The position numbers and the translations under genes were made by a program. This document shows, one piece after another, positions 19,340 to 64,000 of a stretch of DNA of 64,000 nt; position 1 is the stretch's first letter; each line of letters begins with the position of its first letter. The notes under the pieces are model-generated. The model did no database searches. It was not told where the DNA came from and saw only the letters and a program-made list of their open reading frames with translations. This stretch comes from a virus. The stretch is taken from the IMG/VR virus record IMGVR_UViG_3300042197_001295, positions 17,108 to 81,107 of that record. The stretch is one strand, 5' to 3'.

Positions 19340-19951
19340 GTGGAAGATAAAATAAAAAATAAAACAGACACTTGGTTGGAAAGTGTTCTTCTCAAAGAGA
19401 ATGAACACCAGAATCATGAATTGTCAATGAAGAATTCTTTAGAAAAAAATAAAATACCGTTTGAAGGAGAAATTTCTAAACCAGTATCAACATCTGAATT
19501 ATTAGGAAAAGCATTGGAAAGGGCAGACCAATTTCACCAAATAATTCTACCTGCCGTCGAAGAAATGGCATATGCAGTCAGAGAAGATGCCGATGCAGAA
19601 AAAGGAAAAGCATTAGCAAATATGATAATGGCAGGACAAAAATGTCTCCAAACTTATGCAGATATTTATACAAAATTTGTTGAAGTTGAAGGTAGATTAG
19701 AATCGGAAAAATTAAAAGCAGAAGCAATAAAAAGCGTGAAAATAGGAGATACTATAAATATACAACAAAACAATGTTAGTGTAACTACTCCGGCAGAATT
19801 AATGAGAAAAATTACAGAAGCAATGTCTTCTGGAACTTTCGATGTTGATAAATTGAAAATGCTCAAAGAGCAAAAAAGAAAATTAGACAGAGTTACTAAT
19901 AATTCCGATAAAGATAATGATATTAACATAGAAATTCAAAAAGATGTCTAA
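19340..19951 (+). CDS. 16: Probable small terminase subunit (gp16-like)
   Basis: A 203-residue, mostly helical protein overlapping the large terminase gene by eight bases, the usual 16-17 arrangement. Central helices (ELLGKALERADQFHQIILPA, then ANMIMAGQKCLQTYADIYTK) suit the oligomerising coiled coil of T4-type small terminases, and the ends are charged and disordered. Such proteins recognise concatemeric DNA and stimulate the gp17 ATPase. Translation starts at GTG. Sequence similarity is weak, so the call rests mainly on position and predicted structure. Confidence 0.6.
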   Translation: MEDKIKNKTDTWLESVLLKENEHQNHELSMKNSLEKNKIPFEGEISKPVSTSELLGKALERADQFHQIILPAVEEMAYAVREDADAEKGKALANMIMAGQKCLQTYADIYTKFVEVEGRLESEKLKAEAIKSVKIGDTINIQQNNVSVTTPAELMRKITEAMSSGTFDVDKLKMLKEQKRKLDRVTNNSDKDNDINIEIQKDV

Positions 19952-47994: not shown

Positions 47995-48494
47995 CAATGT
48001 TGTTTGAGCCACTGAGCAAGTTCGTCTTTGGATAAAGATATATAAGGAATTATTTGATCATCATTCATGTCAATCAAGCTAATAGATCCATTAGGATGAT
48101 GTTTGATATATCCAATAGGCAATATCAAATTATATATCCATTCCAACATAATTGAAGAATGAGTAGACATAACAAAAGGAAATTGTTTATATTCTATATA
48201 ATTCCTCTTACAATAATCTTTTACCAATAAATCATATTTTGCATAATCTTTATTAGTTTTCCACCAATTTATTTTATTTTCTGTAAAATTTTCTATTGCT
48301 TCTGATGTCAAAAACCAATTTAAAGGTTTACTGGTTTTTGTTTTAAAAAACAAATTATTAAAAAATCTAGGTTTTAAATATAAAAAAGAAAATAAAACAT
48401 CTAAATCATGCGGATCGTATTTCGGATTTTCTTCTCCTTGTTCTTTTTTTGGGTTGTTCGTCATCCACATTTCTAATATTTCCTGTTTTTTCAT
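47991..48494 (-). CDS. Hypothetical protein
   Basis: A 167-residue protein rich in aromatic residues (DVLFSFLYLKPRFFNNLFFK, INWWKTNKDYAKYDLLVKDY). It overlaps the upstream 109-residue gene by 89 bases in another frame; a later ATG would shorten the overlap to 59 bases. Between helicase and gp32 genes one might expect a helicase loader, but no gp59 similarity is evident. Function unknown. Confidence 0.5.
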   Translation of the reverse strand: MKKQEILEMWMTNNPKKEQGEENPKYDPHDLDVLFSFLYLKPRFFNNLFFKTKTSKPLNWFLTSEAIENFTENKINWWKTNKDYAKYDLLVKDYCKRNYIEYKQFPFVMSTHSSIMLEWIYNLILPIGYIKHHPNGSISLIDMNDDQIIPYISLSKDELAQWLKQHC

Positions 48495-48735
48495 TGTTGT
48501 ATTTTTTAGATTTAGATGCGGTTGGATATTGATATGAATAAAATTCTATAAATGAATATTTTGTAATCTCTAAATATTTTTCTAAAAGAAGCATAATATT
48601 TTTGTTTTTTATAACTTCTAATATAAAAGTAGTAGAACTATATATTTTATTATTTAATAAAGATATTAAAGTAGTTACTTTTTTAAAACCAGATAAAATT
48701 TCATTATAATCTATTTCATCATATTCATTTTGCAT
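48406..48735 (-). CDS. Hypothetical small helical protein with basic tail
   Basis: A 109-residue, mainly helical protein (MQNEYDEIDYNEILSGFKKV at the start) ending in a basic tail (KKRTRRRKSEIRSA) that may contact nucleic acid. It follows the helicase gene by nine bases. The size is close to T4 gp33 but I see no convincing similarity. Confidence 0.5.
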   Translation of the reverse strand: MQNEYDEIDYNEILSGFKKVTTLISLLNNKIYSSTTFILEVIKNKNIMLLLEKYLEITKYSFIEFYSYQYPTASKSKKYNNEKTGNIRNVDDEQPKKRTRRRKSEIRSA

Positions 48736-48744
48736 TAATAATAA

Positions 48745-51165
48745 TTAACCCTGTATAGTATCGAAATCAAAATTAAAATTTGACGAAGAAACAGAATTAA
48801 TCATATTTTCCATTTCGGAATTAAAGTCTGTCATTTTCATATTTCTATAATCTATAGATAGTTTACCTCCTTGACCTTTAACACTGAAACGAGATTTCAC
48901 AACTCTATAATTAATCCAAGAACCCTCTTTTGCATTTTGATCTTGCCAAAAGTTTATTTGTGCATCTGCCGTTTGCGGAATTCCTTGAGATTCCAAAGTA
49001 GCAGACATATCAGGATCTTCTTGTTTTAAAGAATTTTTAATATCTAATTGTGTCGGAGACAATATAGGACATTCCCAAATATACGAAAGACTTCTGACGT
49101 TAGCAGCAAGATCTTTTTGATCTTTATACATGTTATAACCTTTGCTTTGATTTCCTGAATTTGGAATCATTAAAGAATGCATATCCAAAATAATAATATC
49201 TGGAACAAATCCGTCTACTCTTTTAAGCTGCTTTAAAAAAGATGAATATTGTCTAGGTGTAATTTCATTAGCAGGAAATTGTTTTATATTCAATCTTCCT
49301 TTTTCCAAAGAAGATTTTAATGTTTCAATTTCTTTTCTCAATTCGTCGCTCTTATAATGTAAATTAGACAGTTCGATTCCGGTTATAATAGAAGAAACTC
49401 GTTTTGCCCAATTTTTTTCACTTAATTCAAATGTAGCAACTTGCACTTTTTTGTTTTGTTTTAAACAATTAGTTGCAAGGTTTGCCATTGTTAAAGAATT
49501 GTGCGTAACAATATAGTTTGTTGTTAAATACAAATTATCTTTTGCATTTACTGTTATGCACATCGATTCTTCGTCTGCGGTTTTTTTAATAGAAATTACA
49601 AAATTATCTCCAAATTTTTCAATTACATAATCATTCTTTAATTCTTCGTATATTTTTTTAGAAACTAATATTTCTAAATATGTTTTAGATGCAGAATACA
49701 ACTTACAAGAACATCCTAATGACCATATGATTTTTTGTATTTGTTTAAACAACCAATCATGATTCCATTTTAAATCAAATAAATTTTTATTAATACAAAA
49801 AATTAAGTTTTTTGTATTTTCTTTTAAAAAGAGATCATCTTTGGTATCTAAAATGCCCTTCAAAAGATTAATTTTATCGACTGCTGTATAGTCAATGCAT
49901 TCAACAGGAACATATTTGCTGTAAATTTTGTTATTTTCGACAAATATTTTCTTAAATTTGTCTAGATAAAAATCGTTTTTATCTTCGCTATCGGACAAAA
50001 CATAATGATCCTCTTTATATTCTTTTAAATTATAAACAGTTTTATTTTCAGGAGGAAGTATTGTATTTAAATAATATTTGTCTTGAAAAATTCCGTTTAT
50101 TTGAGAAACGATGTTTTTATCTTTTAAGTGAAAAACTATTTTATCGTCGAGAATAGCTCCAGATGTTAAAAAACACCCAAGAACATAAGGAGGTATTTCT
50201 GGTTTAGAATATGTAAAAATAGGAGAAGAACAAGGTATTTTTATTAAATCTTTGCTAGAATTAAACTTATGAAGAATATTCAAAGTAGTAAGGGTTTCGT
50301 AAATTTCCAAATCTTTATTCCAAACATTCCACAAATGATCTTTACATGCTTTTACTTTTCTTCCGTCCCAAAACGTAATTTCATACGTTTCAACAATTCC
50401 TTGAGGATGAACATGTGTAATTGTGACAGGCGAACCATCCGAACCAAAAACACAATCTCCCGGTTGCAAACTTCCAAAAGCAACAATTCCTTTATATGGA
50501 GTTGGGGTTTGTGTATATAATGGTTGTGCTTTACCTATATTGACGGTTCCGCCAAATACATAGAAAGATACGTCACTAGAACAAAACCCCCCTCCAAGTG
50601 CCTTGTCTAAGCTTGGAAATCCAGAGCTAATAAAATTATCAACTCTTTTTAATTCATCAATGTGTTTTTCTATATTTTCCAGATAAAAAAAGCCTGTATC
50701 TTCTTTTAAGGAAATGCCGAATACTCGGTCCATTTCTTTTTGTATTTGATGTGTATCATAAACCCCATTGGATGTTTTTAATTCAATTTGTTTATCTAAA
50801 ATCTTTTGAATACTTCTTTGTTTTATGTAAACTTCTAGATTTTTTAATAATTCGTCGAAATTAAAAATTTCTCCTTTTGGAATCTTTTTTAATTCTGCTA
50901 AGGTTTTAGCTAAAAACGCATCTTCGTCTTCATTGTTTAATTTTAAAACAATTTCAGAAGCAGTTGGAAAATTATCATAACTTTCATAATAACTTTTAAT
51001 TATAGAAAAAATAGGACGGAAAAAAGAATTAGTCCGCCCTATCATTTCTGGAGTAAGATAATTAATCGCAACATTAGAAAATCTTTCCTTTTTTCTCAAA
51101 AGGAAATGATACATCATTACTGTTTCAAATTTATCTAAGTTAAGTGTATTATTCGTCGTTGTCAT
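48745..51165 (-). CDS. 41: Replicative DNA helicase (DnaB/T4 gp41-like) interrupted by an intein
   Basis: The precursor from ATG has 806 residues; without the intein 462 remain, close to the 475 of T4 gp41. Extein motifs: SGFPSLDKALGGGF before the Walker A, FGGTVNIGK then S (Walker A, split by the intein), ATFELSEKNWAKRV, DIIILDMHSLMIP (Walker B), and SPTQLDIKNS near the DnaB H3 region. It unwinds DNA ahead of the polymerase on the lagging strand. A TTG six codons earlier is possible. The gene overlaps uvsX by 17 bases. Confidence 0.9.
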   Translation of the reverse strand: MTTTNNTLNLDKFETVMMYHFLLRKKERFSNVAINYLTPEMIGRTNSFFRPIFSIIKSYYESYDNFPTASEIVLKLNNEDEDAFLAKTLAELKKIPKGEIFNFDELLKNLEVYIKQRSIQKILDKQIELKTSNGVYDTHQIQKEMDRVFGISLKEDTGFFYLENIEKHIDELKRVDNFISSGFPSLDKALGGGFCSSDVSFYVFGGTVNIGKAQPLYTQTPTPYKGIVAFGSLQPGDCVFGSDGSPVTITHVHPQGIVETYEITFWDGRKVKACKDHLWNVWNKDLEIYETLTTLNILHKFNSSKDLIKIPCSSPIFTYSKPEIPPYVLGCFLTSGAILDDKIVFHLKDKNIVSQINGIFQDKYYLNTILPPENKTVYNLKEYKEDHYVLSDSEDKNDFYLDKFKKIFVENNKIYSKYVPVECIDYTAVDKINLLKGILDTKDDLFLKENTKNLIFCINKNLFDLKWNHDWLFKQIQKIIWSLGCSCKLYSASKTYLEILVSKKIYEELKNDYVIEKFGDNFVISIKKTADEESMCITVNAKDNLYLTTNYIVTHNSLTMANLATNCLKQNKKVQVATFELSEKNWAKRVSSIITGIELSNLHYKSDELRKEIETLKSSLEKGRLNIKQFPANEITPRQYSSFLKQLKRVDGFVPDIIILDMHSLMIPNSGNQSKGYNMYKDQKDLAANVRSLSYIWECPILSPTQLDIKNSLKQEDPDMSATLESQGIPQTADAQINFWQDQNAKEGSWINYRVVKSRFSVKGQGGKLSIDYRNMKMTDFNSEMENMINSVSSSNFNFDFDTIQG
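49498..50529 (-). mobile_element. Class 3 intein with degenerate LAGLIDADG domain in the helicase Walker A motif
   Basis: A 344-residue insertion between Walker A Lys and Ser. Block A is AQPLYTQTPTPYKG with Ala at position 1. Block B has KDHLWNV (Trp at B:12), block F has MCITVNAKDNLYL (Cys at F:4), block G has IVTHN followed by Ser (Thr at G:5): the Trp/Cys/Thr triad of class 3. Between B and F lie two weak LAGLIDADG helices, YVLGCFLTSGAI and LLKGILDTKDD. The first has Ser where the catalytic acid is expected, so homing is probably lost. Confidence 0.85.
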
Positions 51166-52243
51166 CTGGTAATTCGAAATCAACTTTAGTAGAGTCTACA
51201 TCATAGATTCCATTTTGTCCATTGCCACCAATGGAATAATTCGAATAACACCAAGATCGAAATTCTTCATTTTCTAATAAAGAAAGCAAAACATTTTTTG
51301 GAATATTAGAAGAAGTGTAATACTTATCATTATAACCAACCCAAGTTTTTCTTCCATCCAGACCCAATTCCTTACATTTATTTTTTTCTATTTTTTTGAG
51401 GAAATTTGAATGGGTTCCCAGTTCCAGTAATCCAGAACAAGTATCAATACCTTCTTTTTCATGAATATTAATTGATACTTGTAAGTTTTGTTTTACGAAA
51501 CGCGATTTGATTGCAGTTATACAAAATGTTTGTCCAACAACACTATCTCCATCTTTTAATTTTTTACTAGAAGTAAAAAGTATAGTATCGGATGCCAAAT
51601 ATAATTTCTTACCTCCTGCGATCACTTTTTTACTAAACATTTCTTGAGTATCATAATAGTGATTAATTAATAGACAAGGAATGCCCCGTGCCTTTAGTCT
51701 AGGGGTCATAACTCTGGCAAAAGAATTTAATTTTTTTGCTCTGGTCATATCGGTTTTGTCTTCTCCTGCCAAAAGATCATCTGCTTCTTTTTTACTAGAA
51801 GCCATACCAATAGAATCGACAATGATTAAAACTTTATCGTCTAAAGTAGCAGGATAAATGTCATTCATCATCCCATGAGTCAAATCTTCGATACCTTCAA
51901 AAGATTTATATGCAACATCTTCATCTTTTAATCCAAAATTCTTAAAATATTCTGGTGTTGCTCCATGTTCATTTGAATAAAACAATATAACAGGATTTTC
52001 CTTTTCGTGTTTTTTTACAAATGAACTTGCAATTTCTAAACAATATGAAGTTTTAAAAGTAGAACTGTCTCCGACAAATTGAATAATTCCCGGTCTGATT
52101 CCCCCGTTTTTAGGATCACCTCCTAAAATAAGATTCAAAGCAGGAATTCTTGTAGGAACTGGTTCTACGTGAAGAATTTCACATTCGGATACTTTAGAGA
52201 AGCCCGGTTTTTTAAATATTGTATCTTTAAAAATTGTTGTCAT
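51149..52243 (-). CDS. uvsX: RecA-like recombinase (T4 UvsX-like)
   Basis: A 364-residue strand-exchange protein. RIPALNLILGGDP precedes IIQFVGDSSTFKTSYCLEIA, the UvsX-type Walker A (G-x-x-x-x-F-K-T/S). VLIIVDSIGMASSKKEADD is Walker B, and CLLINHYYDTQEMFSKKVIAGG fits the region ending in the DNA-binding loop. The C-terminus is acidic (DFELPDDNDE), as in UvsX/RecA. It would pair single strands with homologous duplex for recombination-dependent replication. It overlaps the helicase gene by 17 bases, as in the T4 uvsX-40-41 neighbourhood. Confidence 0.9.
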   Translation of the reverse strand: MTTIFKDTIFKKPGFSKVSECEILHVEPVPTRIPALNLILGGDPKNGGIRPGIIQFVGDSSTFKTSYCLEIASSFVKKHEKENPVILFYSNEHGATPEYFKNFGLKDEDVAYKSFEGIEDLTHGMMNDIYPATLDDKVLIIVDSIGMASSKKEADDLLAGEDKTDMTRAKKLNSFARVMTPRLKARGIPCLLINHYYDTQEMFSKKVIAGGKKLYLASDTILFTSSKKLKDGDSVVGQTFCITAIKSRFVKQNLQVSINIHEKEGIDTCSGLLELGTHSNFLKKIEKNKCKELGLDGRKTWVGYNDKYYTSSNIPKNVLLSLLENEEFRSWCYSNYSIGGNGQNGIYDVDSTKVDFELPDDNDE

Positions 52244-52246
52244 AAT

Positions 52247-52642
52247 TTATTCAAATAATCTAGGAATAGTAATTTCTTCAGATTGTGTGTTGGAAACTAA
52301 ATTAGAAGGAGGAACTTCTATCAATCCACAACGAAGCAAATACACTTGTTTAAAAGTGTGATTTTCTGAAGTAACTTCCTTGTCTAAATCAAATGGTAAA
52401 TCGGAATGTAATAAATTTGATTTATTAAATGAAAACGGTTCATTTTCCTTTTTCATAAATTCTGTAAAAACAACAGGAAAAGGTTCATAAAACAATGATT
52501 GATTGTTTGGACCAGTTCTCAAAATAATTTTATGTAAATGTGTCAAAGAAACATTGTTTTTTGTTTCGGAATCTAAAATCCCAATAAAAACGGTTCCTTC
52601 GTTTGTTACTACCACTCTAACGTCATGTTCGGTCTTATCCAT
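52247..52642 (-). CDS. Hypothetical protein between polymerase and uvsX
   Basis: A 131-residue, beta-rich protein (VRVVVTNEGTVFIGILDSET near the start) reminiscent of Sm-like or small barrel folds, with an acidic Ser/Thr-rich end. It stands three bases upstream of uvsX and has its own TTGATA/TATAAT promoter, so it leads the uvsX-helicase transcript. Function unknown. Confidence 0.55.
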   Translation of the reverse strand: MDKTEHDVRVVVTNEGTVFIGILDSETKNNVSLTHLHKIILRTGPNNQSLFYEPFPVVFTEFMKKENEPFSFNKSNLLHSDLPFDLDKEVTSENHTFKQVYLLRCGLIEVPPSNLVSNTQSEEITIPRLFE

Positions 52643-52649
52643 ATATCTT

Positions 52650-52678
52650 ATTATACACTACTTTAAAATCGATATCAA
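52650..52678 (-). promoter_or_regulatory. Sigma70-type promoter for the uvsX-helicase unit
   Basis: TTGATA, 17 bases, TATAAT on the minus strand, seven bases before the ATG of the 131-residue gene. Its -35 overlaps the last bases of the polymerase gene. Confidence 0.65.
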
Positions 52679-55137
52679 GCACATGAAGCAAATTCTTTAA
52701 ACAAATCTACTTCACCGTATGTTTGAAAATTAGGAAATCTCCAATTCAAAACTTCAAATGAAGTCTTTAATCCTGAATAGATTGTTCTTTCCCACATTCC
52801 GTAATAGTCAGGAATCAATCCAAAGTCATAAGGAAATTCGGTTTTATATGCTATTCTTTCTATTCCATAAGAATTTTGCATAACACTCATAACTTTAATA
52901 TCATCGCCATCAGTAATAATTGGATATTTTTTAATATTGTATAATTCTATCAATTCATTATACTTCAAAGAAGCCTTTATATGAAAGGGAACTCCTTTTT
53001 TCACATTTTTATACTTCTTTATATTTTTACAAGATATTCTTGTTGCCAGATTATCTATTGGCGTTTCTGAAAATTTTTCCCAATGTTCAGAAAGAACATC
53101 ACAAACTTCAGATTCGCTAAAACCATTCAATATACAATTTTCAAAAACATCTCTTAGTATTCCTTTTGCTTCTTTAGAAATCGTCGATTTTCTTACAGAA
53201 ACTCCTCTGTATTTGTATTCTAGTTTATTCTTTCCTTCAGAACAACGAACACGCATAACATAGTTTTTCTTTTTTAAGAAAAGAGAATAATCACTGGCAA
53301 CTTCCCATCCAAATTTACAACGAGGATCAATGGAATTATATTCATTTTTACAAAATATTTCTACTTTTTTGTTTAAAATTTTGGTCAAAGAATTTAAAAC
53401 TTTAATTCCGTCATTAGTAAGACCATCAGAATCAAAATAATCTAATGTGAGAACTTTAACCATTAAAGAATCAGTATCTGAAGCAACCACGCACGATTCA
53501 TCATTAAAAATATCTTCCATTACAGTTGCAGACTTTTTGATCAAATTTTGACCAGTGGAAGTTACGCTTTCTGCACATTCTACATCATACATACAGAAAT
53601 ATTTGCATCCACATGCTCCATATACAGAATTAATCAAAATCTTAATTGCATATTGTTCGCTATCCAAAATCTTTTTCTTATCTGGATCTTCGGTAGTTTC
53701 TATCAATTTTTTGATACGAACACGTTCAGAATATGTTTTGTCCAAATATTCTGGAATGATTCCTTTAAAAGATTGATCGAAAATTATTCCACAAGAAGAA
53801 AGAGAATATTTATTGGATTTTAAATAAGCATCAAAACCATCTAAAGGCATTATTTTTTCTTTATCGAGTATAGAAAATTTAACTTGTCCATCTGTTTTTT
53901 TAATAACTTTTCCAATTTTAGTTTCGGGGGAAATATTCAAAGTTATCATTGTATTTGGATACAATGAATTAACGTCAAAAACGACAATTCCGGTATGAAT
54001 GCCCGGAATTGGTTCTTTAACAAACCCCCCTTCAAAATCTACAGAAGAGTCGTCGTATATATTAGAAGGAATAATTCTTTTCTTTTCCCATGCGGATTTG
54101 GCAAGACATCCTTCGATGATTCTAACTTTACCCAAAGCAGAATTCAATGTGGTAAATCCCTGCGTAACCGTATTTCTTGCAATTTGCAAAAACGATTTTT
54201 TTTCATCTAGATCTACCATCAATCTAACGTCTTGAATATTGTATTCTACAAATTTTCTCCAATCGTTATTGGAAAGAGAATAAAGCGAACCTTCATATTT
54301 TATTTTGCCTTCCAAACCAGAATAAGTGGAAACATATTCCAATGAATAACTTTCTAATTTAGAAGGATGCATGTATTCAAACAACAATTTATAATCAACA
54401 TGGGATATTCCCGGAATATCCCATTTATCGTATTGCGTTTGACGTTTTCTATTTAACTTTTTAGTAGAATAGATTTTTCTAATGGGAGACAGAGATTCTG
54501 GAGGGATTTTCAATCTTTTCAATCGATTGACAATATATGGAATATCGAATTCTTCTCCGTTCCATGTTACCAAAATATCAGGAAGGGAAGAAATTCTATA
54601 TGCAAAATTTTCTAATAGTTCTTTTTCAGTTTTAAAGTAATAATATATATTTCTGTCATCAATCGGATCACATTTTTTTATTCCCCAAGTATAGGTGATA
54701 TTGTCAATTGAATCATGACAAGAAATCACATTTATCGGAAATTTGGAATCTTCTGGTTGAGGAAATCCATCATTTTCTGGATCTACATCGACTTCAATGT
54801 CCAAATACCATATTCTCATTTTAAATGAGGAATCCAACCCTTTGTCTTTATATTTTAAGAAAAGATATTGTTGGTCACAAGGTAAATTAAAATAAACTTT
54901 GCCGTAATTGTCTTTGGCAAAAGTATTACGTTCATATGAATTAGAAAACCTTTTTAAGACTAAAGGTTCATCATAGATGGATCTTGCGTCTTCTACATTG
55001 TCGTGTATAGATTTTTGAGTGTATAAAAACGGCTTGTAATTAATTATCGAATGATTTCTGGTGCCACTGTCGTCATAAATCCATTCATGAATATTTGATG
55101 TTTTTGAATCAAAATAAACATTAGACAATTTTATCAT
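52675..55137 (-). CDS. 43: Family B DNA polymerase (T4 gp43-like)
   Basis: An 820-residue replicative polymerase. Proofreading exonuclease motifs: IWYLDIEVDVD (Exo I), VTWNGEEFDIPYIV (Exo II) and VEYNIQDVRLMVDL (Exo III, with the Tyr and Asp of the Y-x-x-x-D motif). Polymerase motifs: VVFDVNSLYPNTM (motif A), KILINSVYGACG (motif B) and VASDTDSLMV (motif C, with D-T-D). It is about 80 residues shorter than T4 gp43. There is no intein or split. The start overlaps the small upstream gene by four bases. Confidence 0.95.
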   Translation of the reverse strand: MIKLSNVYFDSKTSNIHEWIYDDSGTRNHSIINYKPFLYTQKSIHDNVEDARSIYDEPLVLKRFSNSYERNTFAKDNYGKVYFNLPCDQQYLFLKYKDKGLDSSFKMRIWYLDIEVDVDPENDGFPQPEDSKFPINVISCHDSIDNITYTWGIKKCDPIDDRNIYYYFKTEKELLENFAYRISSLPDILVTWNGEEFDIPYIVNRLKRLKIPPESLSPIRKIYSTKKLNRKRQTQYDKWDIPGISHVDYKLLFEYMHPSKLESYSLEYVSTYSGLEGKIKYEGSLYSLSNNDWRKFVEYNIQDVRLMVDLDEKKSFLQIARNTVTQGFTTLNSALGKVRIIEGCLAKSAWEKKRIIPSNIYDDSSVDFEGGFVKEPIPGIHTGIVVFDVNSLYPNTMITLNISPETKIGKVIKKTDGQVKFSILDKEKIMPLDGFDAYLKSNKYSLSSCGIIFDQSFKGIIPEYLDKTYSERVRIKKLIETTEDPDKKKILDSEQYAIKILINSVYGACGCKYFCMYDVECAESVTSTGQNLIKKSATVMEDIFNDESCVVASDTDSLMVKVLTLDYFDSDGLTNDGIKVLNSLTKILNKKVEIFCKNEYNSIDPRCKFGWEVASDYSLFLKKKNYVMRVRCSEGKNKLEYKYRGVSVRKSTISKEAKGILRDVFENCILNGFSESEVCDVLSEHWEKFSETPIDNLATRISCKNIKKYKNVKKGVPFHIKASLKYNELIELYNIKKYPIITDGDDIKVMSVMQNSYGIERIAYKTEFPYDFGLIPDYYGMWERTIYSGLKTSFEVLNWRFPNFQTYGEVDLFKEFASCA

Positions 55138-55430
55138 TTTTTATTCGTGTTAGATATGCTAGATTTTAACAGAAGTCCTTCTTGGTAATTTCTTATTTCG
55201 ATAAAGGACTCGTTGAGAAGTTCTGTTAACTTATTTGTAATCTTAGAATCTATACCATCGATCTTTATCTCCTTCAACACACATTCTCCAGAAATCTTAA
55301 AAAAAACTTCGTCTCTTTCCTTTTCTATGTAAAAATTTCTTAAAGCTTTGCCTAATTTTTCAAATTCTTCTTCCCACGAAGAACTAGAATCGTATAATTC
55401 TTCAATAACATTTTTTTCGTCCGATGCCAT
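55134..55430 (-). CDS. Hypothetical small protein, possibly YbaB/EbfC-like
   Basis: A 98-residue protein overlapping the polymerase start (ATGA-type). The order helix (SWEEEFEKLGKALRNFYIEK), strands (EVFFKISGECVLKEIKIDG), then helix (ITNKLTELLNESFIEIRNY) is that of YbaB/EbfC nucleoid-associated proteins, which form small DNA-binding dimers. The match is structural rather than sequence-based, so confidence in the family is low. It is co-transcribed with polymerase from its own promoter. Confidence 0.5.
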   Translation of the reverse strand: MASDEKNVIEELYDSSSSWEEEFEKLGKALRNFYIEKERDEVFFKISGECVLKEIKIDGIDSKITNKLTELLNESFIEIRNYQEGLLLKSSISNTNKK

Positions 55431-55438
55431 ACTTTTGT

Positions 55439-55467
55439 ATCTTATAGATTTTTTAGTTCTTTGTCAA
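55439..55467 (-). promoter_or_regulatory. Sigma70-type promoter before the polymerase unit
   Basis: TTGACA, 17 bases, TAAGAT on the minus strand (an alternative TATAAG at 15 bases). It lies in the gap after the glycosyltransferase gene. Confidence 0.5.
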
Positions 55468-56720
55468 TCTGGAAATTGTTCTTTGTTCAAATTATAAATT
55501 AATTTTGATTCTTTTCTGGATTTGTCGCCATATGGAGTCAGAAACAATTTTAAATAATCGTCCATGTGATCTTGTATAAATAATCCCTCTGCTCTTTGTC
55601 TGGATTGTTTAGAAATTTCACTATAATTTCCATTTAATACTTCGTCTATTTTAGAAATCATTTCCTCTCCACTTTGAAATTTATATCTAGCATCAGCATA
55701 CGGAGGACATTCTTGAGCAACACATGGCAACCCCTGAACCCAAGAATCCAAAAGTTTTTGCCAACTTTTAGAATGTGAAAAATAATTTGCTATTAAAGGA
55801 GCAATAGTGCATTGCACATTTAAACTTTTAAGTTTTTCAGGAAAATCCATAATGTTTACCCATTCGTGAAATTCAATTTGTCCAGAATCTACATATTTTT
55901 TAAGATATACTGGACAACCACCAAATAAAACCCATTGATATTTATCTAATGTCTCTATTATGGATTTTCCTACGTGTATAAAATCATCATACAAGTCTTC
56001 TTGTTTCTCGACCTTTCCTGTAATTTTAAAATGAGTTGGGCTACCGTTCCAACAAACTCTTGGTTTCTTTTTATTTTTTTCAAAATTTCTTAAAACATTT
56101 TCTTCATTATAATGATTTCCTGCCCATCTTTTTGAAATCAAGTTTGGAAATGTTGTAATTTTATTATAACCTAATGTATTTCTGTATGTCTCCTTCATAA
56201 AAGAAGAACAAACTATAAATTCATCGCATAAGTTTATAATTTCTTTGACTCTAGAATCGTGGTTCGGATCTTTGAAATTTTCTTTTGCAGCATTGTAATC
56301 CGGTATACCATGGTGATATTTTCCGTCGAGTCCTTTAACACTTAACAAAAAGAGATCATCGACTTCAAATATTAATTTAAATGCTGTTCCTTTTTCTGCT
56401 AAAATTGATTGTTGTAAGTTTTTAAGGTTTTTGAAATATTCCAATTGGTGTTGTTCGCCCTGCCTTTGTATAATAACAGCATTAGAATTAGTAAAAGTTT
56501 CTTTTGAAAAAATCATCATATGGCTTGTGTTTACAATGCCCTTTCCGTGATAGCTAAGGTGCATTAGTGGTTCCATTAGCCTGATATAAGAACACCCGCT
56601 AGAATCCGCCAAAAAGGACGTTATAACGGGAATTTGATTGATGATTGGGGAACGGGGAGAATTTTGATTTTCTAAATTTACATTAGTATTTTTAAATTCT
56701 CTCTTAAACTGTAATGCCAT
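55464..56720 (-). CDS. Glycosyltransferase, GT-B fold (family 4-like)
   Basis: A 418-residue protein. The C-terminal half has the GT-B donor site layout: RVCWNGSPTHF at its start, QWVLFGGCP, IEFHEWVNIMDFPEKLKSLN, CTIAPLIANYFSHSKSWQKL and WVQGLPCVAQECPPY, with the E-x7-E-like end replaced. The N-terminal half has LIFEVDDLFLL and FIVCSSFMKETY. It might glycosylate phage DNA, a virion protein or host structures; no DNA-base-modifying partner is seen here, so the target is open. Confidence 0.7.
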   Translation of the reverse strand: MALQFKREFKNTNVNLENQNSPRSPIINQIPVITSFLADSSGCSYIRLMEPLMHLSYHGKGIVNTSHMMIFSKETFTNSNAVIIQRQGEQHQLEYFKNLKNLQQSILAEKGTAFKLIFEVDDLFLLSVKGLDGKYHHGIPDYNAAKENFKDPNHDSRVKEIINLCDEFIVCSSFMKETYRNTLGYNKITTFPNLISKRWAGNHYNEENVLRNFEKNKKKPRVCWNGSPTHFKITGKVEKQEDLYDDFIHVGKSIIETLDKYQWVLFGGCPVYLKKYVDSGQIEFHEWVNIMDFPEKLKSLNVQCTIAPLIANYFSHSKSWQKLLDSWVQGLPCVAQECPPYADARYKFQSGEEMISKIDEVLNGNYSEISKQSRQRAEGLFIQDHMDDYLKLFLTPYGDKSRKESKLIYNLNKEQFPD

Positions 56721-56760
56721 ATAAATAGATATATTTTTATCTATTCGACATCAAATAACA

Positions 56761-58449
56761 TTATGCATTCACCAAAACGGTTTCTCTATCTATTTTTTCT
56801 AAATGTATAATCTTATCAAAAGAAAACGAAACTGATTCTCTGTGAGTTATAAAAAATACACAATGATTATTTTCGATTGCTCTTTCTCTTAATAACTCTA
56901 ATATAGAAACTATACCAACTTCATCTATAGATGAATCTAAAAGTTCATCACAAACAAATAAATTACAATCAAATCCAGTCACTATTTTTTTAATGTCTTG
57001 CAGTGCTAAAAGAATTGATACGTCTATTCTTTTTGCTTCGCCTCCAGATAAACTCCCATACGATATTTCTTTTTCTTTTTGAAAAATAACAACATCGAAA
57101 TTGTTTTCTACTTTTATTGAATAAGGAAAATTAAAAACATTTGCATAATTAGCTAGAATATAATTAAACTTATCTAATATTTTGGGAATTATTATAGACT
57201 TTATACCTTTATCTCCTAAAAGCTGAATAGCATTTAATTGAATATCCATTTGAAATAATTTTTCGTCTAAAAGAGTAGATAAATTTTTTATTTCTTCGTC
57301 ATATTTTGAAATTTCTAAAATCAAACTATTATTGTCTAATTTTTGGTTTAATTTTATATTAATTTCTTTTATTTTCTCATATAATGGATCTAGTCCATTT
57401 TTCATTTGTTCAACTATATTGTTATTTTCTAATATAGATTTTTTTAAATCGTTTTCTATATAAATGATTTGTATATGTCGATCTTCCCTTTTAGATATTT
57501 TGTTTATTAAGTTTTTTATTTTTTCTTCATATTCTACTTTGTGCGTCATATCTGCACTGTTCCAACTTTGTTTACAGGTTGGACATATGTTTGGAGTTTT
57601 ATAAACATTAGAAGATTTAAGAAGTTCTAATTCTTTTTTTAAACCTATTAACTGATTAGAAATTTTTTGTTTTACTTCTTCTAATTGTTTTAGATTACTG
57701 GTATTTTCTTTTATTATATCTAAACTTTTTTCTAAAATAGATGTATCGTATTTTGATATTTTTAATTCGATATTTTTTTTATCTTTGTTTAATTGTTCTA
57801 TCAATATAGAAAATTTTTCTTCTTCGTTTTTCAATACATCTTCTAATCTTTTTTTACCGTTCTTTTTTTCTTGTAAAGATGAATAATCAATATCTATTTC
57901 TTTTTGTAATTTGTTTTTATCTAATCTTGCTGCTTCCAGCATGTCTCTTAAAACAGTTAAATCAAAAATAGATTCTAAAAATTTTTGTCTATTTATTGGC
58001 GTTTCTGATAAAAAACTATTTGTTTTTGTGTCGAGAAATATAGAATTTCTTGCAAATTTTTCATTACAATGAATTATTTGGCATATTTCTTTATTAGTTT
58101 CGTCTACAGATTTAGTTATATCTTGACCATTTTTAATAAAAGTAATTGACGTGGGTATTCTTCTAGTCAGTTCATATTCGTCTTCCCCTATAGAAAAATA
58201 TAGTTTTACACAAGTAGATCCGCCTTTTCTATTTCTAATTTCTGATTGTTTTATTCTTCGGAATGCCTCTCCGAATAAAACCCAAAAAATACTATCTAAA
58301 ATTAAAGCAGATTTACCTACTCCATTTCTGGAATTTTTATCTTTATTAAATCCTTGAACAAGTGTTAATCCAGAATTGTAATTTAATTCTATCTGACTTG
58401 TAATTGACAAGAAATTTGAAACTATGATTTTTTTGAACTTTACAAACAC
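56761..58449 (-). CDS. 46: Recombination endonuclease subunit (T4 gp46, SbcC/Rad50-like)
   Basis: A 562-residue SMC-like ATPase: FNKDKNSRNGVGKSALILDS (Walker A), a long coiled coil, a zinc hook ICPTCKQSW in the middle, then SYGSLSGGEAKRIDVSILLA (signature) and LFVCDELLDSSID (Walker B). With gp47 it forms a nuclease complex that processes DNA ends and feeds recombination-dependent replication. Translation starts at GTG. A gp47 gene is not recognised in this window, so the partner lies elsewhere. Confidence 0.9.
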   Translation of the reverse strand: MFVKFKKIIVSNFLSITSQIELNYNSGLTLVQGFNKDKNSRNGVGKSALILDSIFWVLFGEAFRRIKQSEIRNRKGGSTCVKLYFSIGEDEYELTRRIPTSITFIKNGQDITKSVDETNKEICQIIHCNEKFARNSIFLDTKTNSFLSETPINRQKFLESIFDLTVLRDMLEAARLDKNKLQKEIDIDYSSLQEKKNGKKRLEDVLKNEEEKFSILIEQLNKDKKNIELKISKYDTSILEKSLDIIKENTSNLKQLEEVKQKISNQLIGLKKELELLKSSNVYKTPNICPTCKQSWNSADMTHKVEYEEKIKNLINKISKREDRHIQIIYIENDLKKSILENNNIVEQMKNGLDPLYEKIKEINIKLNQKLDNNSLILEISKYDEEIKNLSTLLDEKLFQMDIQLNAIQLLGDKGIKSIIIPKILDKFNYILANYANVFNFPYSIKVENNFDVVIFQKEKEISYGSLSGGEAKRIDVSILLALQDIKKIVTGFDCNLFVCDELLDSSIDEVGIVSILELLRERAIENNHCVFFITHRESVSFSFDKIIHLEKIDRETVLVNA

Positions 58450-58479
58450 TATAAAATCTATATTAAATTAGTTACATTT

Positions 58480-59115
58480 TCAAGAAACAAGATCGTTTAT
58501 TTTGTTTCTATATTTTTTTATAAAATTTTCGTCTATTATTGTATTTTCTTCAACGAAATTTTCTGCTATTCTTTCGTATTGTAAATGAAAAAAATCTTCA
58601 GGTGAAGAAAAAAATTCTATGTAAGATTGATTTTCGTTTAACCACCATTTTTGGTCATCGATACTAAAACATTCCTTTATTAATTTACAAAGATCCTTTG
58701 TATTGTTATACAAATCATTCGCATAAGATTCATAGATTATGTTGTGTTTAGATTTGTTAAAATATAAATCTTTATGGTCTTTGTATTGATAACTCGTAAC
58801 ACAAACATTGTAATCGTTTATTTCTTTATTTTGTTTTTTTAACAAATTGTAGATTATCGGGGTTGGATCTTCTCGATAACAATAAAATATATTTTTTCTA
58901 TTAATATAGACATTGGTCAGATCATTTGTATACATTCCCCAAAAATTTTCTTTAGAACTTTCTTGAAAATAACTTTTGGGATATGCTGTAGTTTGTAAAA
59001 ATATTTCAATACAACAAGAAACTAAATCTAGTCCAGAAAAAGGAAAACCAATCAAGACCGGATAATCTTGATTGGTCATAAAAGACGTATAAAAGCTTTT
59101 ATTGTAGTCTTCCAT
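58480..59115 (-). CDS. Hypothetical protein, possibly sulfotransferase-like
   Basis: A 211-residue protein. LIGFPFSGLDLVSCCIEIFL could be a degenerate PAPS-binding P-loop, KNIFYCYRE a following strand, and IIYESYANDLYNNTKDLCKL then IKECFSID resembles the Y-E-D-L helix late in sulfotransferases. The key Lys of the P-loop is missing, so activity is doubtful. It overlaps the dUTPase gene by one base. Alternative: a degenerate kinase-like P-loop protein. Confidence 0.45.
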   Translation of the reverse strand: MEDYNKSFYTSFMTNQDYPVLIGFPFSGLDLVSCCIEIFLQTTAYPKSYFQESSKENFWGMYTNDLTNVYINRKNIFYCYREDPTPIIYNLLKKQNKEINDYNVCVTSYQYKDHKDLYFNKSKHNIIYESYANDLYNNTKDLCKLIKECFSIDDQKWWLNENQSYIEFFSSPEDFFHLQYERIAENFVEENTIIDENFIKKYRNKINDLVS

Positions 59116-59600
59116 TACGAACCACTGCTTCCTAAACCACCTCTTGATTTTTTCTGAGGAATTTCGCTTTCAACCAATACAATTTCTGGAATAGGCATAA
59201 TTATAATTTGTGCTATCCTATCTCCCTTTTTGTATATTTTATCATAAATAGCACTATCTTCTTCTCCATTAATATGATTAGATAATAATACATATGAAGG
59301 ACTCATATATAATCTATAATTAAGAATAATTTCGTCAGTATAGCCATGATCAATAACGGCAACAGAGTTGACTAAACTCAAACATTTATTTTTAATAGAC
59401 GATCTTGGGAAAACATATCCTACATAATTTTTTGGAATATTTATTCCTATCCCGGTTTCGTAACTTATAATACACGTATTATTCGTTTCTCTTTTTATAT
59501 CACCTTCTTCCAAAGCATATATATCAAATGCGGCATCATATTGATTGGCTTTTGTTGGAATTTTTGCATCCACATGATGTTTGTATAATTCAATATTCAT
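59115..59600 (-). CDS. dut: Deoxyuridine triphosphatase (dUTPase)
   Basis: A 161-residue trimeric-type dUTPase with all five motifs in order: AAFDIYALEEG (1), FPRSSIKNK (2), NSVAVIDHGYTDEI (3), GDRIAQIIIMP (4) and SRGGLGSSGS (5). The usual final Phe/Thr is replaced by Gly-Ser. It hydrolyses dUTP to dUMP and PPi, keeping uracil out of phage DNA and feeding dTMP synthesis. A short insertion (residues 105-125) lies between motifs 3 and 4. It overlaps the HAD gene by 11 bases. Confidence 0.9.
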   Translation of the reverse strand: MNIELYKHHVDAKIPTKANQYDAAFDIYALEEGDIKRETNNTCIISYETGIGINIPKNYVGYVFPRSSIKNKCLSLVNSVAVIDHGYTDEIILNYRLYMSPSYVLLSNHINGEEDSAIYDKIYKKGDRIAQIIIMPIPEIVLVESEIPQKKSRGGLGSSGS

Positions 59601-60033
59601 TATATTTTAGTATTTCTAGTGCTTTTTGTAAATCTTTTTCTTCTATTCCGAAATTGTAATTTATTTTTATATGGAAAGGTATTTGATAATCATTAAATAC
59701 CACACTTGATAAATCGTCAAATATACAAAATTTATCTGCCAATATGTTTATATTGTTTGATGATAACCATTCTTGTATTTCGTCTCCTTTTCGTTTGGAG
59801 AAATGTTTTGTTTTATCTATAAAATTCCCAAATAGATTATTATTATTTGTAAAGTGTTTTAATTCGTCGAAAGTTTCATATAAATGTGTTTCGAACACTA
59901 TTTCACATTTTGGTATTTTTGCAACAAAGTCATTCCAAATATTGACAATTTTTTTAGGTATTGTAATAGAATTTATATTCTCAGTAATAGGTAATAAAGT
60001 TCCGTCAATATCTAAAAAAATTATTTGTCTCAT
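59590..60033 (-). CDS. HAD-superfamily phosphatase-like protein
   Basis: A 147-residue protein beginning MRQIIFLDIDGTLLPITENI, the HAD motif I (D-x-D-G-T). FETHLYETFDELKHF could contain the motif II Thr, and DKFCIFDDLSS supplies the motif III/IV acidic pair (D-D). It is a compact HAD without a large cap, likely a phosphatase for a small substrate such as a nucleotide. It overlaps both neighbours; its ATG overlaps the TAA of the 51-residue gene. Confidence 0.75.
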   Translation of the reverse strand: MRQIIFLDIDGTLLPITENINSITIPKKIVNIWNDFVAKIPKCEIVFETHLYETFDELKHFTNNNNLFGNFIDKTKHFSKRKGDEIQEWLSSNNINILADKFCIFDDLSSVVFNDYQIPFHIKINYNFGIEEKDLQKALEILKYNEY

Positions 60034-60188
60034 TAGTCTATATCTGTATAAAAAGATTGAATCAAATATTCGACAATATAATCTAATTGATCTTCATCGA
60101 ATTCAACATCACATTCGGATAATAGATTTTCTATTTTTTCTACTATCGTTTCTTTGTCGTCTTCATATTGTAAATGCTTTTTCGACAT
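60033..60188 (-). CDS. Small acidic hypothetical protein
   Basis: A 51-residue ORF: MSKKHLQYEDDKETIVEKIE, then DEDQLDYIVEYLI near the end. It is acidic and helical. Its TAA overlaps the ATG of the HAD gene (TAATG), the tight coupling seen across this block, which supports it as real. Function unknown. Confidence 0.5.
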   Translation of the reverse strand: MSKKHLQYEDDKETIVEKIENLLSECDVEFDEDQLDYIVEYLIQSFYTDID

Positions 60189-60217
60189 AATAATATCTAC
60201 TAATTAGTATTTTATGT

Positions 60218-60448
60218 TTAGTTTTTTAAAGAAATTATCCTGCCGTTGTCAGGAGACGATTTGTCAAACTCAACAATAACTTTATCACCAACAACCACGC
60301 CCATATATTTCTTTCGAACTTCTTTATTTGGATAACATGTTAAATCAACGAAATTTTCGGCGTTTTCTTCTAAACGAACTAAAAACTTTCCACCTTTTAA
60401 GATTTCTTTTATCAAACCTTCTTTTTTTAAAAGATTTTCTTTTCCCAT
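60218..60448 (-). CDS. infA: Translation initiation factor IF-1 homologue
   Basis: A 76-residue S1/OB-fold protein aligning along its length with bacterial IF-1: KKEGLIKEILKGGKFLVRLE (strands 1-2), FVDLTCYPNKEVRKKYMGVV (compare H-I-S-G-K-M-R-K-N-Y-I in E. coli), and GDKVIVEFDKSSPDNGRII (compare G-D-K-V-T-V-E-L...G-R-I). IF-1 occupies the ribosomal A site during initiation and modulates IF-2 and IF-3. A phage copy could alter start-site choice on its Shine-Dalgarno-poor messages. A TATAAATA box is two bases before the ATG. Confidence 0.8.
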   Translation of the reverse strand: MGKENLLKKEGLIKEILKGGKFLVRLEENAENFVDLTCYPNKEVRKKYMGVVVGDKVIVEFDKSSPDNGRIISLKN

Positions 60449-60449
60449 A

Positions 60450-61298
60450 TTATTTATAATATATTTTTTCTAACATATTTCCGTTAGTAGAATGCATTTT
60501 TTCTAGAAAATTTAAAACTTCTTCAATGCCCATTGGTTTTGCCTGAGTTGGATTAAATCCGTGTTTTTTTTCAAACAATAAAAGAGCATCTTTAAAATTC
60601 TGTAAGAATTTTTCTTTGTCTTTTCTGATTATTGAACACGAATGATTTTCGTCTTGCTCTCCAATATATTGATCAGAATTTGCAATATCCGCCCACCATC
60701 CAAATCCAGTCGAAAACCCATTTTTGAAAATTCTATATGAATGTTCAACATGTTCCATAGCATTGACGAAATTTTCATCAATATATCCAACAATAGGTAT
60801 AATTGCGCTGTTATAATAACTAAACGATCCAAGGATATTTGGATGAAAAGTAATTTCATATTTTTCATCCATACATTCGTAATCAACGGAATTGATTATA
60901 ATCGAAGAACCATCAGAATTTACGTTTGCATTTCCGTGCTTGTGGAAATTAAAATGATAAATTCCACTTGTATATGCATGTTTGATATATCTTTCAAAGA
61001 TAGAATTATCTTTGAGTAACATATCATCCTCGATTAAGAAGATATGTTTTTTATTTTTATTTCTGAGAAATCTTAATAATTCATTTTTTGCATGTCCGAC
61101 AGAAAGCGTTTCTTTATTAATTTCTTTAGAAACTAAAGAAAATTTATCTTTATTATATTCTATAGGTTCTGTGCCGGAATTGAAAATTAAAATTTCTGAC
61201 AAATAATCAGTATCTATAGAATTTAATAAATTATTAAAAAATTCTGGTCTGTTACATGTAATTAAACCAACACCTATATCTTCTTTAAAAATACTCAT
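60450..61298 (-). CDS. Glycosyltransferase, GT-A fold (family 2-like)
   Basis: A 282-residue protein: DIGVGLITCNRPEFFNNLLN (N-terminal nucleotide-binding strand), ILIFNSGTEP, VGHAKNELLRFL and KHIFLIEDDMLLKDNSIFER with the D-x-D metal site (E-D-D). NAMEHVEHSYRIF supplies the later acidic E-D/H motif. It adds a sugar to an unknown acceptor. It lies two bases upstream of the IF-1 gene, with a good TTGACA/TACTAT promoter. Confidence 0.75.
   Translation of the reverse strand: MSIFKEDIGVGLITCNRPEFFNNLLNSIDTDYLSEILIFNSGTEPIEYNKDKFSLVSKEINKETLSVGHAKNELLRFLRNKNKKHIFLIEDDMLLKDNSIFERYIKHAYTSGIYHFNFHKHGNANVNSDGSSIIINSVDYECMDEKYEITFHPNILGSFSYYNSAIIPIVGYIDENFVNAMEHVEHSYRIFKNGFSTGFGWWADIANSDQYIGEQDENHSCSIIRKDKEKFLQNFKDALLLFEKKHGFNPTQAKPMGIEEVLNFLEKMHSTNGNMLEKIYYK
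60451..60458 (-). promoter_or_regulatory. TATAAATA box next to the IF-1 start
   Basis: An exact TATAAATA on the minus strand two bases before the ATG. It overlaps the end of the upstream glycosyltransferase gene; at this distance a promoter role is uncertain. Confidence 0.3.
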
Positions 61299-61307
61299 AT
61301 GAGATAT

Positions 61308-61336
61308 ATAGTATCATATTGATTTTTTGGTGTCAA
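61308..61336 (-). promoter_or_regulatory. Sigma70-type promoter for the GT2/IF-1 unit
   Basis: TTGACA, 17 bases, TACTAT on the minus strand, nine bases before the ATG of the glycosyltransferase. Probably also transcribes IF-1, dUTPase and HAD genes. Confidence 0.65.
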
Positions 61337-62625
61337 TATCCCCAAGAATTAATTTTATTAATTTTTTTCTTAAATTTTGTTTCAACAACAAAATCACGTA
61401 AATTAAAAATTTTAGATTTTTCTGGAATGTAATAATTACATGGACGTGTTTCAGTTAAAAACCAAAAATATTTTTCTGGATGTTTTGGTTGCAATGCTGT
61501 TCCTTGCCCATCTGTTATAATAAAAACAGAATCTGGATGCTGTTTCATTTGATTAACTTCGTTCGCAATAATATCGAATCTTGTCCCACCTCCAACTGGA
61601 ATAGAACAATCTTCGTTTTTATAGATTTGTGTTATATTAGTTAATGTATCATCAAAAACATACACTTTAATATTAAAATATTCTTCTGGAATCATTCTAG
61701 ATGCAGATACAAACATATCAACATATTTTTCACAACTTCCACTAACATCTAAAAATAAACAAATGTTGTTTTTATTTTTTAAAAGTGCATCGTTTTTATT
61801 TTTACCGGGAAATATAAAAGACGAATTACGCATTATGGACGAATATCTTCTATTTTGATAACCCCATTGTGGTTGATTTTTAACTCTTTTGATACTGTAT
61901 CTACACCATTTATCGATAACAGAATACCAAGGTTTTTTCTGAGAAAGATTATTTAACCAATTAATCGTTTTGTTGTTTTGATTGCCGCAAAACGATTGAG
62001 ATTTAATTTCAGATTCTATCTCTTGAGGATCATAAGATTCATATGATTCAAAATATTTTTGAATAAAATCTTGAAAGGTTTCTAATTTTTCTAACCCACT
62101 AATATTTTCCATAGGAAAATACATAATATCACTATTATTATTTTCTTCTGAATTTTTTCTTAGAAGATCGAAATAGTATTCGACGCTTTTATTGTAATGA
62201 TTTTCTATAGGTCCATATTTTTCGGTATCGTGAAACACAGTATCCACCCATGCAATTTTATCTGCTAAATCAGGAGATAAACTGTTTCTTTTTATGTTTA
62301 AAAAATCATTAATGAAATGATTAATATAAACATCTGTTGAGATATTAAATATCTCATATTCGCTTTTATCAAGATCTTTTATTCTCCATAAATGTCCGAA
62401 AAATAAATGACACATTTCATGGCAAATAACAAATACTTTATCTAAATCTGTTTTTGTAGTTTCTTTCCAAAAAGAAGGATTTACATAAAATGTAATTTTA
62501 TTTTCATGTAAACTTACACAAGCAGTTTCTATAGAATTGTTTTCTATAACATTTCCATAACCAACCATTAATTTAAATAATTCATGTTGATCGTAGAAAT
62601 GGTGACGATATTCTTTTATATTCAT
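61333..62625 (-). CDS. VWA-domain protein with metallopeptidase-like domain (DUF2201/CobT-type)
   Basis: A 430-residue protein in two parts. The N-terminal half holds VFVICHEMCHLFFGHLWRIK, an H-E-x-x-H zinc motif with a further His after it. The C-terminal half is a von Willebrand A domain: CLFLDVSGSCEKYVDMFVSA (D-x-S-G-S, MIDAS), PVGGGTRFD (MIDAS Thr) and DSVFIITDGQG (MIDAS Asp). This pairing is known from proteins encoded beside MoxR-type ATPases and resembles the CobT subunit of cobalt chelatase. Its ATG overlaps the stop of the AAA+ gene by one base, so the two probably form one complex. Confidence 0.75.
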   Translation of the reverse strand: MNIKEYRHHFYDQHELFKLMVGYGNVIENNSIETACVSLHENKITFYVNPSFWKETTKTDLDKVFVICHEMCHLFFGHLWRIKDLDKSEYEIFNISTDVYINHFINDFLNIKRNSLSPDLADKIAWVDTVFHDTEKYGPIENHYNKSVEYYFDLLRKNSEENNNSDIMYFPMENISGLEKLETFQDFIQKYFESYESYDPQEIESEIKSQSFCGNQNNKTINWLNNLSQKKPWYSVIDKWCRYSIKRVKNQPQWGYQNRRYSSIMRNSSFIFPGKNKNDALLKNKNNICLFLDVSGSCEKYVDMFVSASRMIPEEYFNIKVYVFDDTLTNITQIYKNEDCSIPVGGGTRFDIIANEVNQMKQHPDSVFIITDGQGTALQPKHPEKYFWFLTETRPCNYYIPEKSKIFNLRDFVVETKFKKKINKINSWGY

Positions 62626-64000
62626 TACTTTACGTAAGCAAAAAACACATCATTGGACTTGGGAAGAATTGTATACAGTGTTTGCAATGAATATTTCTTA
62701 CTGAGATAATCATCTTGTGACCAAACCGTTAAAAGCCTATTCAAAACAGTATCAAATTCTCCATTTTTTGTCAGCGAATCATCCATCAAAGAAAAAACTA
62801 GTAACAAATCATTAAAATTTTTCTTAATAGTATTTTTCGTACATTTTCCATATGACTTTAAAATAATCTTTGTCGCATTTGAAAGTTTTGCAATAGGACA
62901 TTTAATCTCAATTTTTAATGTTTCACTCGTTATATCTTTATAACTAGATCCGACATTGATTAAGTCACACAATCTTCTATTTACAGATTTAAATCTGTAA
63001 ATAGAAGCACTTAAATTCATTCGATCTTCAGACGTAACACTACTAGTAGTAAACAGATTAGTAGGGTCGAATTTTTCTTCAGTTGGGCCGTTTTGAATAA
63101 ATAATGAATTTTCAAGAGAATTAATATCAAATATAGTATTTTTTTGGACTTCCAAAGAAGATTGATTTTTAAGATGATGTAATTTTATCGAAACTACATC
63201 ATTTTCGCACATTTTATTCGTTCTTTCTAGAGAACGAACGACACTAGGAGAAGTATTATATGTAGAACAAATTTCTTTATAGATTTTGCAGAAATTTTTA
63301 TCGTCTAAAGCATATTTAAATTCTACATAACTTTGGTATTCGTCATTTTCCAAAAACATCTTGGAAACAATGTCTCTGGGAGCAAGAGGAGTGTATTTTT
63401 TAAGAGATTCCTCTGTAAAAGTTTTTTTAATATAATTGAGTTTTCCGGTATCGATTAACTTTTTATAGTTTTCTTCGCATGGATTCAACAACAAATCATC
63501 ATATATTAATTTTACAGGATCTGATTGTAGATACGTAACCAGTTGCTTAATATTAGAATCGGAAGGTAAAATTATATTTAATGGGATGCCTTGTTTATAA
63601 GATCTGTATGCTTCTTCCAATCTTCTAGAAGAGATATGTTTTCTGGAATTTTCATGCTGTTCAGCCCACCATTTCACCAAGATGTTTCCATCATTTTTGT
63701 ATTTTTCATTAAAGAACCTTTCGCTAGGTCTAGAAGGAATTCTAATAATACACTGGAATCTATCAATTTGAGCAGGGTCAATTTCTTCTACGTTATAATT
63801 GAACATTTCGTCAGAAGGAGGATTTATGGATGCCCATACAATTTTCAGATTTGGAAATTTTCTTCCATTAATGCTTTTAAATTGTAAAAGTTCCATCATG
63901 GCATTCAATGTGGCTTTATCAGCAGCACGATTATATTCGTCCAGAAAGATTGCTTCCAGATTTTCATTGATTCTGGCAGGTCTTACAAATTTGAGATGTC
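62625..64000 (-). CDS. MoxR-family AAA+ ATPase (partial, runs off right edge)
   Basis: The frame is open to the window's right edge, so the N-terminus and Walker A are not seen; 458 codons are visible. LEAIFLDEYNRAADKATLNA is the Walker B and following helix, LKIVWASINPP is sensor 1, and EIDPAQIDRFQCIIRIPSRP contains the arginine-finger region. The C-terminal 250 residues are an unrecognised helical extension. MoxR/CobS-type ATPases work with VWA partners to insert metals or remodel proteins. It is coupled to the VWA/metallopeptidase gene. Confidence 0.75.
   Translation of the reverse strand, partial: HLKFVRPARINENLEAIFLDEYNRAADKATLNAMMELLQFKSINGRKFPNLKIVWASINPPSDEMFNYNVEEIDPAQIDRFQCIIRIPSRPSERFFNEKYKNDGNILVKWWAEQHENSRKHISSRRLEEAYRSYKQGIPLNIILPSDSNIKQLVTYLQSDPVKLIYDDLLLNPCEENYKKLIDTGKLNYIKKTFTEESLKKYTPLAPRDIVSKMFLENDEYQSYVEFKYALDDKNFCKIYKEICSTYNTSPSVVRSLERTNKMCENDVVSIKLHHLKNQSSLEVQKNTIFDINSLENSLFIQNGPTEEKFDPTNLFTTSSVTSEDRMNLSASIYRFKSVNRRLCDLINVGSSYKDITSETLKIEIKCPIAKLSNATKIILKSYGKCTKNTIKKNFNDLLLVFSLMDDSLTKNGEFDTVLNRLLTVWSQDDYLSKKYSLQTLYTILPKSNDVFFAYVK

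Follow-up and report, generated by a model that had tools for sequence, protein, structure and literature searches.

That phages carry homologues of bacterial translation initiation factor IF-1 (infA) is already known. In the parts of the respective reports available, Lak megaphages are described with a "prokaryotic initiation factor-1" (PMC6784885) and huge phages with IF1 and IF3 (PMC7162821), and in Jug phages a "translation initiation factor 1A" counts among the core genes (PMC12363816), which renders out of date the statement, made in a sequence-only reading of the DNA studied here, that viral IF-1 genes are rarely reported. Canonical IF-1 occurs across many contigs of the phage collection: an IF-1 query matched 36 records, some of them apparently host DNA (an Acinetobacter contig with housekeeping genes looks like it), and in IMG/VR at least 238 of 600 candidate IF-1 stretches were confirmed. 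Bacteroides phage DAC16 and its kin encode a canonical IF-1 with an N-terminal extension of ∼30 residues, which is annotated as a hypothetical protein (L004:627-929), and two phages with T4-type capsids (G026 and G028; 320 and 349 kb) carry both a canonical IF-1 and a bS21 gene. A functional test of a phage-borne IF-1 was not found in the accessible portions of the literature on such genes. What is unusual about the homologue described here, designated P0001, is the loss of most of the residues with which IF-1 grips the ribosome.

The window (the whole stretch of DNA analyzed, 64,000 nt) comes from a virus record of 81,107 bases and was identical to a 144,634-base IMG/VR contig, G001, across the 13,780 bases compared. 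Because the major capsid gene of G001 is of the T4 type (PF07068, E 7e-77), the phage is T4-like; such a capsid gene was present in 10 of 33 contigs tested, this one among them. Close relatives are missing from the collections searched: neither a near-DNA search with positions 48000-64000 of the window nor a protein search with P0001 yielded a match in the phage collection, P0001 had no match in the genome contig collection, and for P0001, a nearby VWA-like gene, and the DNA polymerase, relatives in the viral contig collection came only from the identical contig G001. Across all three collections, this contig was also the only source of a homologue of the diverged form of P0001. An Rfam scan of the window gave no match, bS21 and S1 were looked for in G001 and neither was found, and tRNA genes were absent from the window and from the fetched pieces of the rest of G001. 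To our knowledge, the absence of tRNA genes is unusual in a large T4-like phage.

The gene for P0001 is an intact 76-codon open frame. Its coordinates had been given exactly in the sequence-only reading, from which its location on the minus strand was absent. It is embedded in the following row of genes:

59115-59600, minus strand: dUTPase gene (PF00692, 59.1 bits; phrog_135)
59590-60033, minus strand: HAD-type phosphatase-like gene (PF18143, 39.1 bits, exceeding the cut-off of 27.5)
60033-60188, minus strand: acidic open frame of 51 aa, directly downstream of P0001
60218-60448, minus strand: P0001, IF-1-like single OB-fold protein of 76 aa (ATG at 60448, stop at 60218-60220)
60450-61298, minus strand: glycosyltransferase-like gene (phrog_2456, E 5.7e-20), upstream of P0001 with a 1-base gap
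61333-62625, minus strand: VWA-like/metallopeptidase-like gene (sub-threshold Pfam matches; phrog_1314)
62625-63908, minus strand: gene without family match and of ATPase-like look, adjoining the VWA-like gene

The last two genes presumably resemble MoxR/VWA pairs. Farther downstream of P0001 lie genes for a gp46/SbcC-like protein and a family-B-like DNA polymerase. As P0001 shares its strand with the replication and nucleotide-metabolism genes, it is probably made together with them. Its G+C content at the three codon positions (0.43/0.23/0.25) is high at the first and low at the later ones, as in eight other genes measured, and its pI (9.07) lies inside the range of the compared IF-1s.

The full-length alignment of P0001 with IF-1 proposed from the sequence was borne out, as TIGR00008 (infA) matched with 34.7 bits (E 1.3e-8) over model positions 1-66 of 69; the R-K-x-Y (as RKKY), G-D-K-V, and G-R-I blocks are present as well. 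PF01176 (IF-1) scored 28 bits, and the phage IF-1 family phrog_30201 matched significantly (E 2.4e-7, 31.5 bits); the latter also recognized the five canonical phage IF-1s scanned (60.9-105.6 bits). The best PDB matches were IF-1s, with ribosome-bound IF-1 first at 5.4e-6 and the best non-IF-1 chain at 0.05. On our own profile of 166 other IF-1s (86 viral and 80 cellular, including L060, L076, L084, and L093, which in our judgment resemble proteobacterial IF-1, look like host DNA, and were retained here and in the Shine-Dalgarno counts below), P0001 reached 44.9 bits. Among the phage's 1,953 open frames, the runner-up scored 8.4 bits, and 5,000 shuffled versions of P0001 reached at most 12.7 bits. 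The score relative to the shuffles and the six-frame controls rules out that P0001 is a chance open frame. Other families with the OB fold matched far more weakly, namely the S1 domain with 16.7 bits (below the PF00575 cut-off of 22) and the OB domain of RsgA with 11.8 bits, and assignment of P0001 to either was rejected in view of the IF-1 scores of 34.7 and 28 bits. Thus, the profile search suggested earlier as a check, with a better S1/OB match as the refuting outcome, left IF-1 as the best-matching OB family over the full length. Judged by these comparisons, P0001 is a protein of the phage's own that descends from IF-1 and has diverged strongly.

P0001 resembles bacterial IF-1 (TIGR00008, PF01176) in its size, its full-length single OB fold, and the G-D-K-V and G-R-I motifs; it differs by a score below the cut-offs, seven replaced residues, and a four-residue insertion between strands 2 and 3. 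The curated cut-offs were missed both for TIGR00008 (34.7 versus 61.15 bits) and for PF01176 (28 versus 30.2 bits). When TIGR00008 was searched over phage contigs, all 11 others scored 94.8-103 bits (i.e., above 61.15) and this phage 33.2 bits; of 148 Bacteroidota genomes searched, 143 had a match, the best one in each scoring 109.4-125.3 bits. The phage-borne infA homologues of huge phages, Lak phages, Bacteroides phages, and Sinorhizobium phage Phosso fall into the same PHROG as P0001 (phrog_30201), but the five representatives scanned, unlike P0001, all pass the TIGR00008 cut-off (82.7-115.6 bits).

Of the residues by which IF-1 contacts the 30S subunit, K39 has been assigned to the 530 loop and R41 and R46 to A1492/A1493, whereas H35, Y60, R64, and R66 are placed on the S12 side of the interface (available part of PMC10913371). 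In E. coli, R69 (mature numbering) is essential for 30S binding according to mutagenesis (available part of PMC4611024); by our mapping, it is the invariant C-terminal R70 when the first Met is counted. P0001 has E at IF-1 position 39, R at 41, G at 46, Y at 35, S at 60, N at 64, R at 66, and L at 70, and it keeps two (R41 and R66) of the seven residues of the interface set K39, R41, R46, Y60, K/R64, R66, and R69/70. Overall (E. coli numbering), G38, K39, R46, Y60, D61, K64, and R70 are replaced, and G11, R41, D51, V53, G65, and R66 are kept; basic residues are present in the helix region (K42, K46, and K47 of P0001). The C-terminus is aligned less surely, the profile alignment ending at I67, and the place of the C-terminal arginine might be taken by lysine 75. 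Conservation was gauged on 82 comparison IF-1s, 52 of them viral (found by patterns outside this part) and 30 the best-scoring HMM-found ones from the 143 Bacteroidota genomes with a match, as it would be circular at the pattern positions on the 166-sequence set, which was mostly found by PYDL-containing patterns. K/R39, Y60, D61, R66, and R70 were present in 82 of 82, and K/R46 and K/R64 in 80 of 82 each. With the curated cut-offs missed and most of the described 30S-contact residues gone, neither of which appeared in the sequence-only reading, the functional name "translation initiation factor IF-1" given there does not hold. By the available tests on its sequence, P0001 is a homologue of IF-1 that stands outside IF-1 proper.

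Three IF-1s of IMG/VR phages (L029, L267, and L268) have a GGK(F/Y)LV strand 1-2 loop in common with the first half of P0001 (GGKFLV.L), but they retain the PYDL and C-terminal arginine signatures that P0001 is devoid of. A tree of 46 of the 86 viral and 43 of the 80 cellular IF-1s (near-copies dropped) did not place P0001: it came to stand beside L029 with 67% SH-aLRT support and a long-branch warning, its branch measuring 2.87 changes per site and the next longest 1.28. Owing to this support value and the warning, kinship with L029 is a lead only, that is, P0001 may derive from an L029-like phage IF-1.

Modeled together with 33 relatives from the phage collection, P0001 was predicted to adopt an OB fold with a pLDDT of 84.9, a value biased toward IF-1 by the IF-1 relatives in the input (without them, pLDDT was only 49.9). 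This model comprises strands at residues 6-16, 22-27, 33-40, 56-62, and 68-75 and a helix at 42-50, that is, as expected of IF-1, an OB fold of five strands in which a short helix follows strand 3 and precedes strand 4, and its top PDB structure matches were all IF-1, 30S-bound forms included.

Taken with its sequence features, P0001 could be an IF-1-derived, RNA- or 30S-binding modulator of initiation rather than an equivalent of IF-1, which is the reading we tentatively prefer, at somewhat less than an even chance. IF-1 homology, the OB fold, the retained R41, D51, V53, G65, and R66, the basic helix, the likeness of the first half to L029, L267, and L268, the phage-like codon pattern, and the pI of 9.07 speak for it; the equivalents of K39, R46, Y60, K64, and R70 being E, G, S, N, and L speak against it, R69 being essential in E. 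coli. Most likely, P0001 would still bind structured RNA, using the strand 1-2 half that it has kept together with its short basic helix, and would probably do so at the 30S decoding site or close to it. Since it has lost or altered the greater part of the contacts that IF-1 makes with the 530 loop, A1492/A1493, and S12, it would not perform the standard IF-1 job; during infection, it may instead act on initiation as a modulator, for instance through weak binding or competition with host IF-1. A more specific proposal is that P0001 is a remodeled IF-1 turned new initiation modulator: the half entering helix 44 would be kept, and of the contacts with the decoding bases, the 530 loop, and S12 the majority would be dropped. 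Where ribosomes initiate independently of Shine-Dalgarno sites, it would thereby either alter the choice of start sites or block host IF-1. This proposal as a whole we consider quite unlikely.

The main rival, possible yet rather unlikely, is that P0001 has left the ribosome and serves the phage by chaperoning RNA or by preventing transcription termination. In E. coli, IF1 acts as an RNA chaperone and as an antiterminator and can complement cold-shock proteins (available part of PMC3017892), and IF1 helps MS2 replicase to read through, apparently as an RNA chaperone (available part of PMC8956599); in P0001, moreover, the ribosome face is mostly lost, and the fold and basic charge are kept. However, R41 and R66 are kept too, some basic residues may be shared between the two activities, and the reading draws on analogy.

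Another reading makes P0001 a working IF-1 that acts in place of, or alongside, the host factor; as suggested in the sequence-only reading, it may then favor the phage's own messages, almost all genes in the window having been said to lack a Shine-Dalgarno site. The latter observation was correct: GGAG, AGGA, or GAGG occurred at -20 to -4 of 5 of 125 ATG starts of the phage, equal to the background at the control distance (-40 to -24; also 5 of 125). Instead, A was enriched at -11 to -6, with a peak of 65% at -10. Among IF-1-bearing loci of the phage collection (80 with at least five genes; 6 of 86 had fewer and were dropped, near-copies were kept), 246 of 794 starts had Shine-Dalgarno motifs versus 52 at the control distance. 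Use varied between loci, 30 of the 80 having such sites in at least 40% of their starts and 21 in at most 15%. Because 30 of 80 IF-1 loci use these sites to that extent, IF-1 carriage is not tied to their absence; the comparison rejects it as an adaptation to missing Shine-Dalgarno sites, and a preference of the phage IF-1 for messages without them is not supported. As Bacteroidia ribosomes do not recognize Shine-Dalgarno sites (available part of PMC9976891), their absence would more simply reflect the host, if this is Bacteroidia-like. Although homology to IF-1 and the phage's starts without such sites agree with a working IF-1, the independence of IF-1 carriage from them, the missed curated cut-offs, and the lost contact residues make it improbable.

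An IF-1 mimic with dominant-negative effect, filling part of the IF-1 site and thereby stopping host initiation early in infection, would fit an interface that is part kept and part lost as well as the location among replication and nucleotide-metabolism genes; yet the phage's messages depend on the same ribosomes, and this purely conjectural role is distinctly improbable. That P0001 is a decaying IF-1 gene without function, as its very long branch (2.87 versus 1.28 changes per site for the next) might suggest, is very improbable given the intact frame with phage-like codon-position pattern, the tight gene row, and the preservation of G11, D51, V53, G65, and R66.

P0001 is a natural outlier in which the IF-1 fold persists while the majority of the residues to which IF-1 function is ascribed are gone. 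It would be useful for asking which IF-1 contacts matter, and whether phage homologues of IF-1 alter, and not merely supply, initiation.

Beside P0001, the window contained further features of the phage:

2137-3003, minus strand: YHGS...GWGFYF protein (sub-threshold DUF3990 match)
2931-3824, minus strand: MxxFxxYL-type gene
3861-4139, minus strand: MxxFxxYL-type gene
4192-4758, minus strand: MxxFxxYL-type gene
4827-5396, minus strand: MxxFxxYL-type gene (more elsewhere on G001)
19944-22301, plus strand: large terminase-like gene with an apparent in-frame insert (intein-like ends, by reading of the translation)
48745-51183, minus strand: DnaB/gp41-like helicase gene with an apparent in-frame insert (intein-like ends; helicase C-terminal domain matched)

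From their translations, the terminase-like and helicase genes seem to hold intein-like in-frame inserts. N-terminal peptides of the MxxFxxYL type (e.g., MLTKFNNYLNSMLNES and MISFKNYLIES) were present in 15 of 144 predicted proteins of G001, compared with 16 of 3,910 internal 10-residue windows; a stricter version of the pattern yielded 6 of 131. We take these peptides to resemble the capsid-targeting peptides of T4 internal proteins and, by analogy, they could identify a sizable group of proteins that are packed inside the phage head. The YHGS...GWGFYF protein, we presume, is possibly an ADP-ribosyltransferase-like internal protein.
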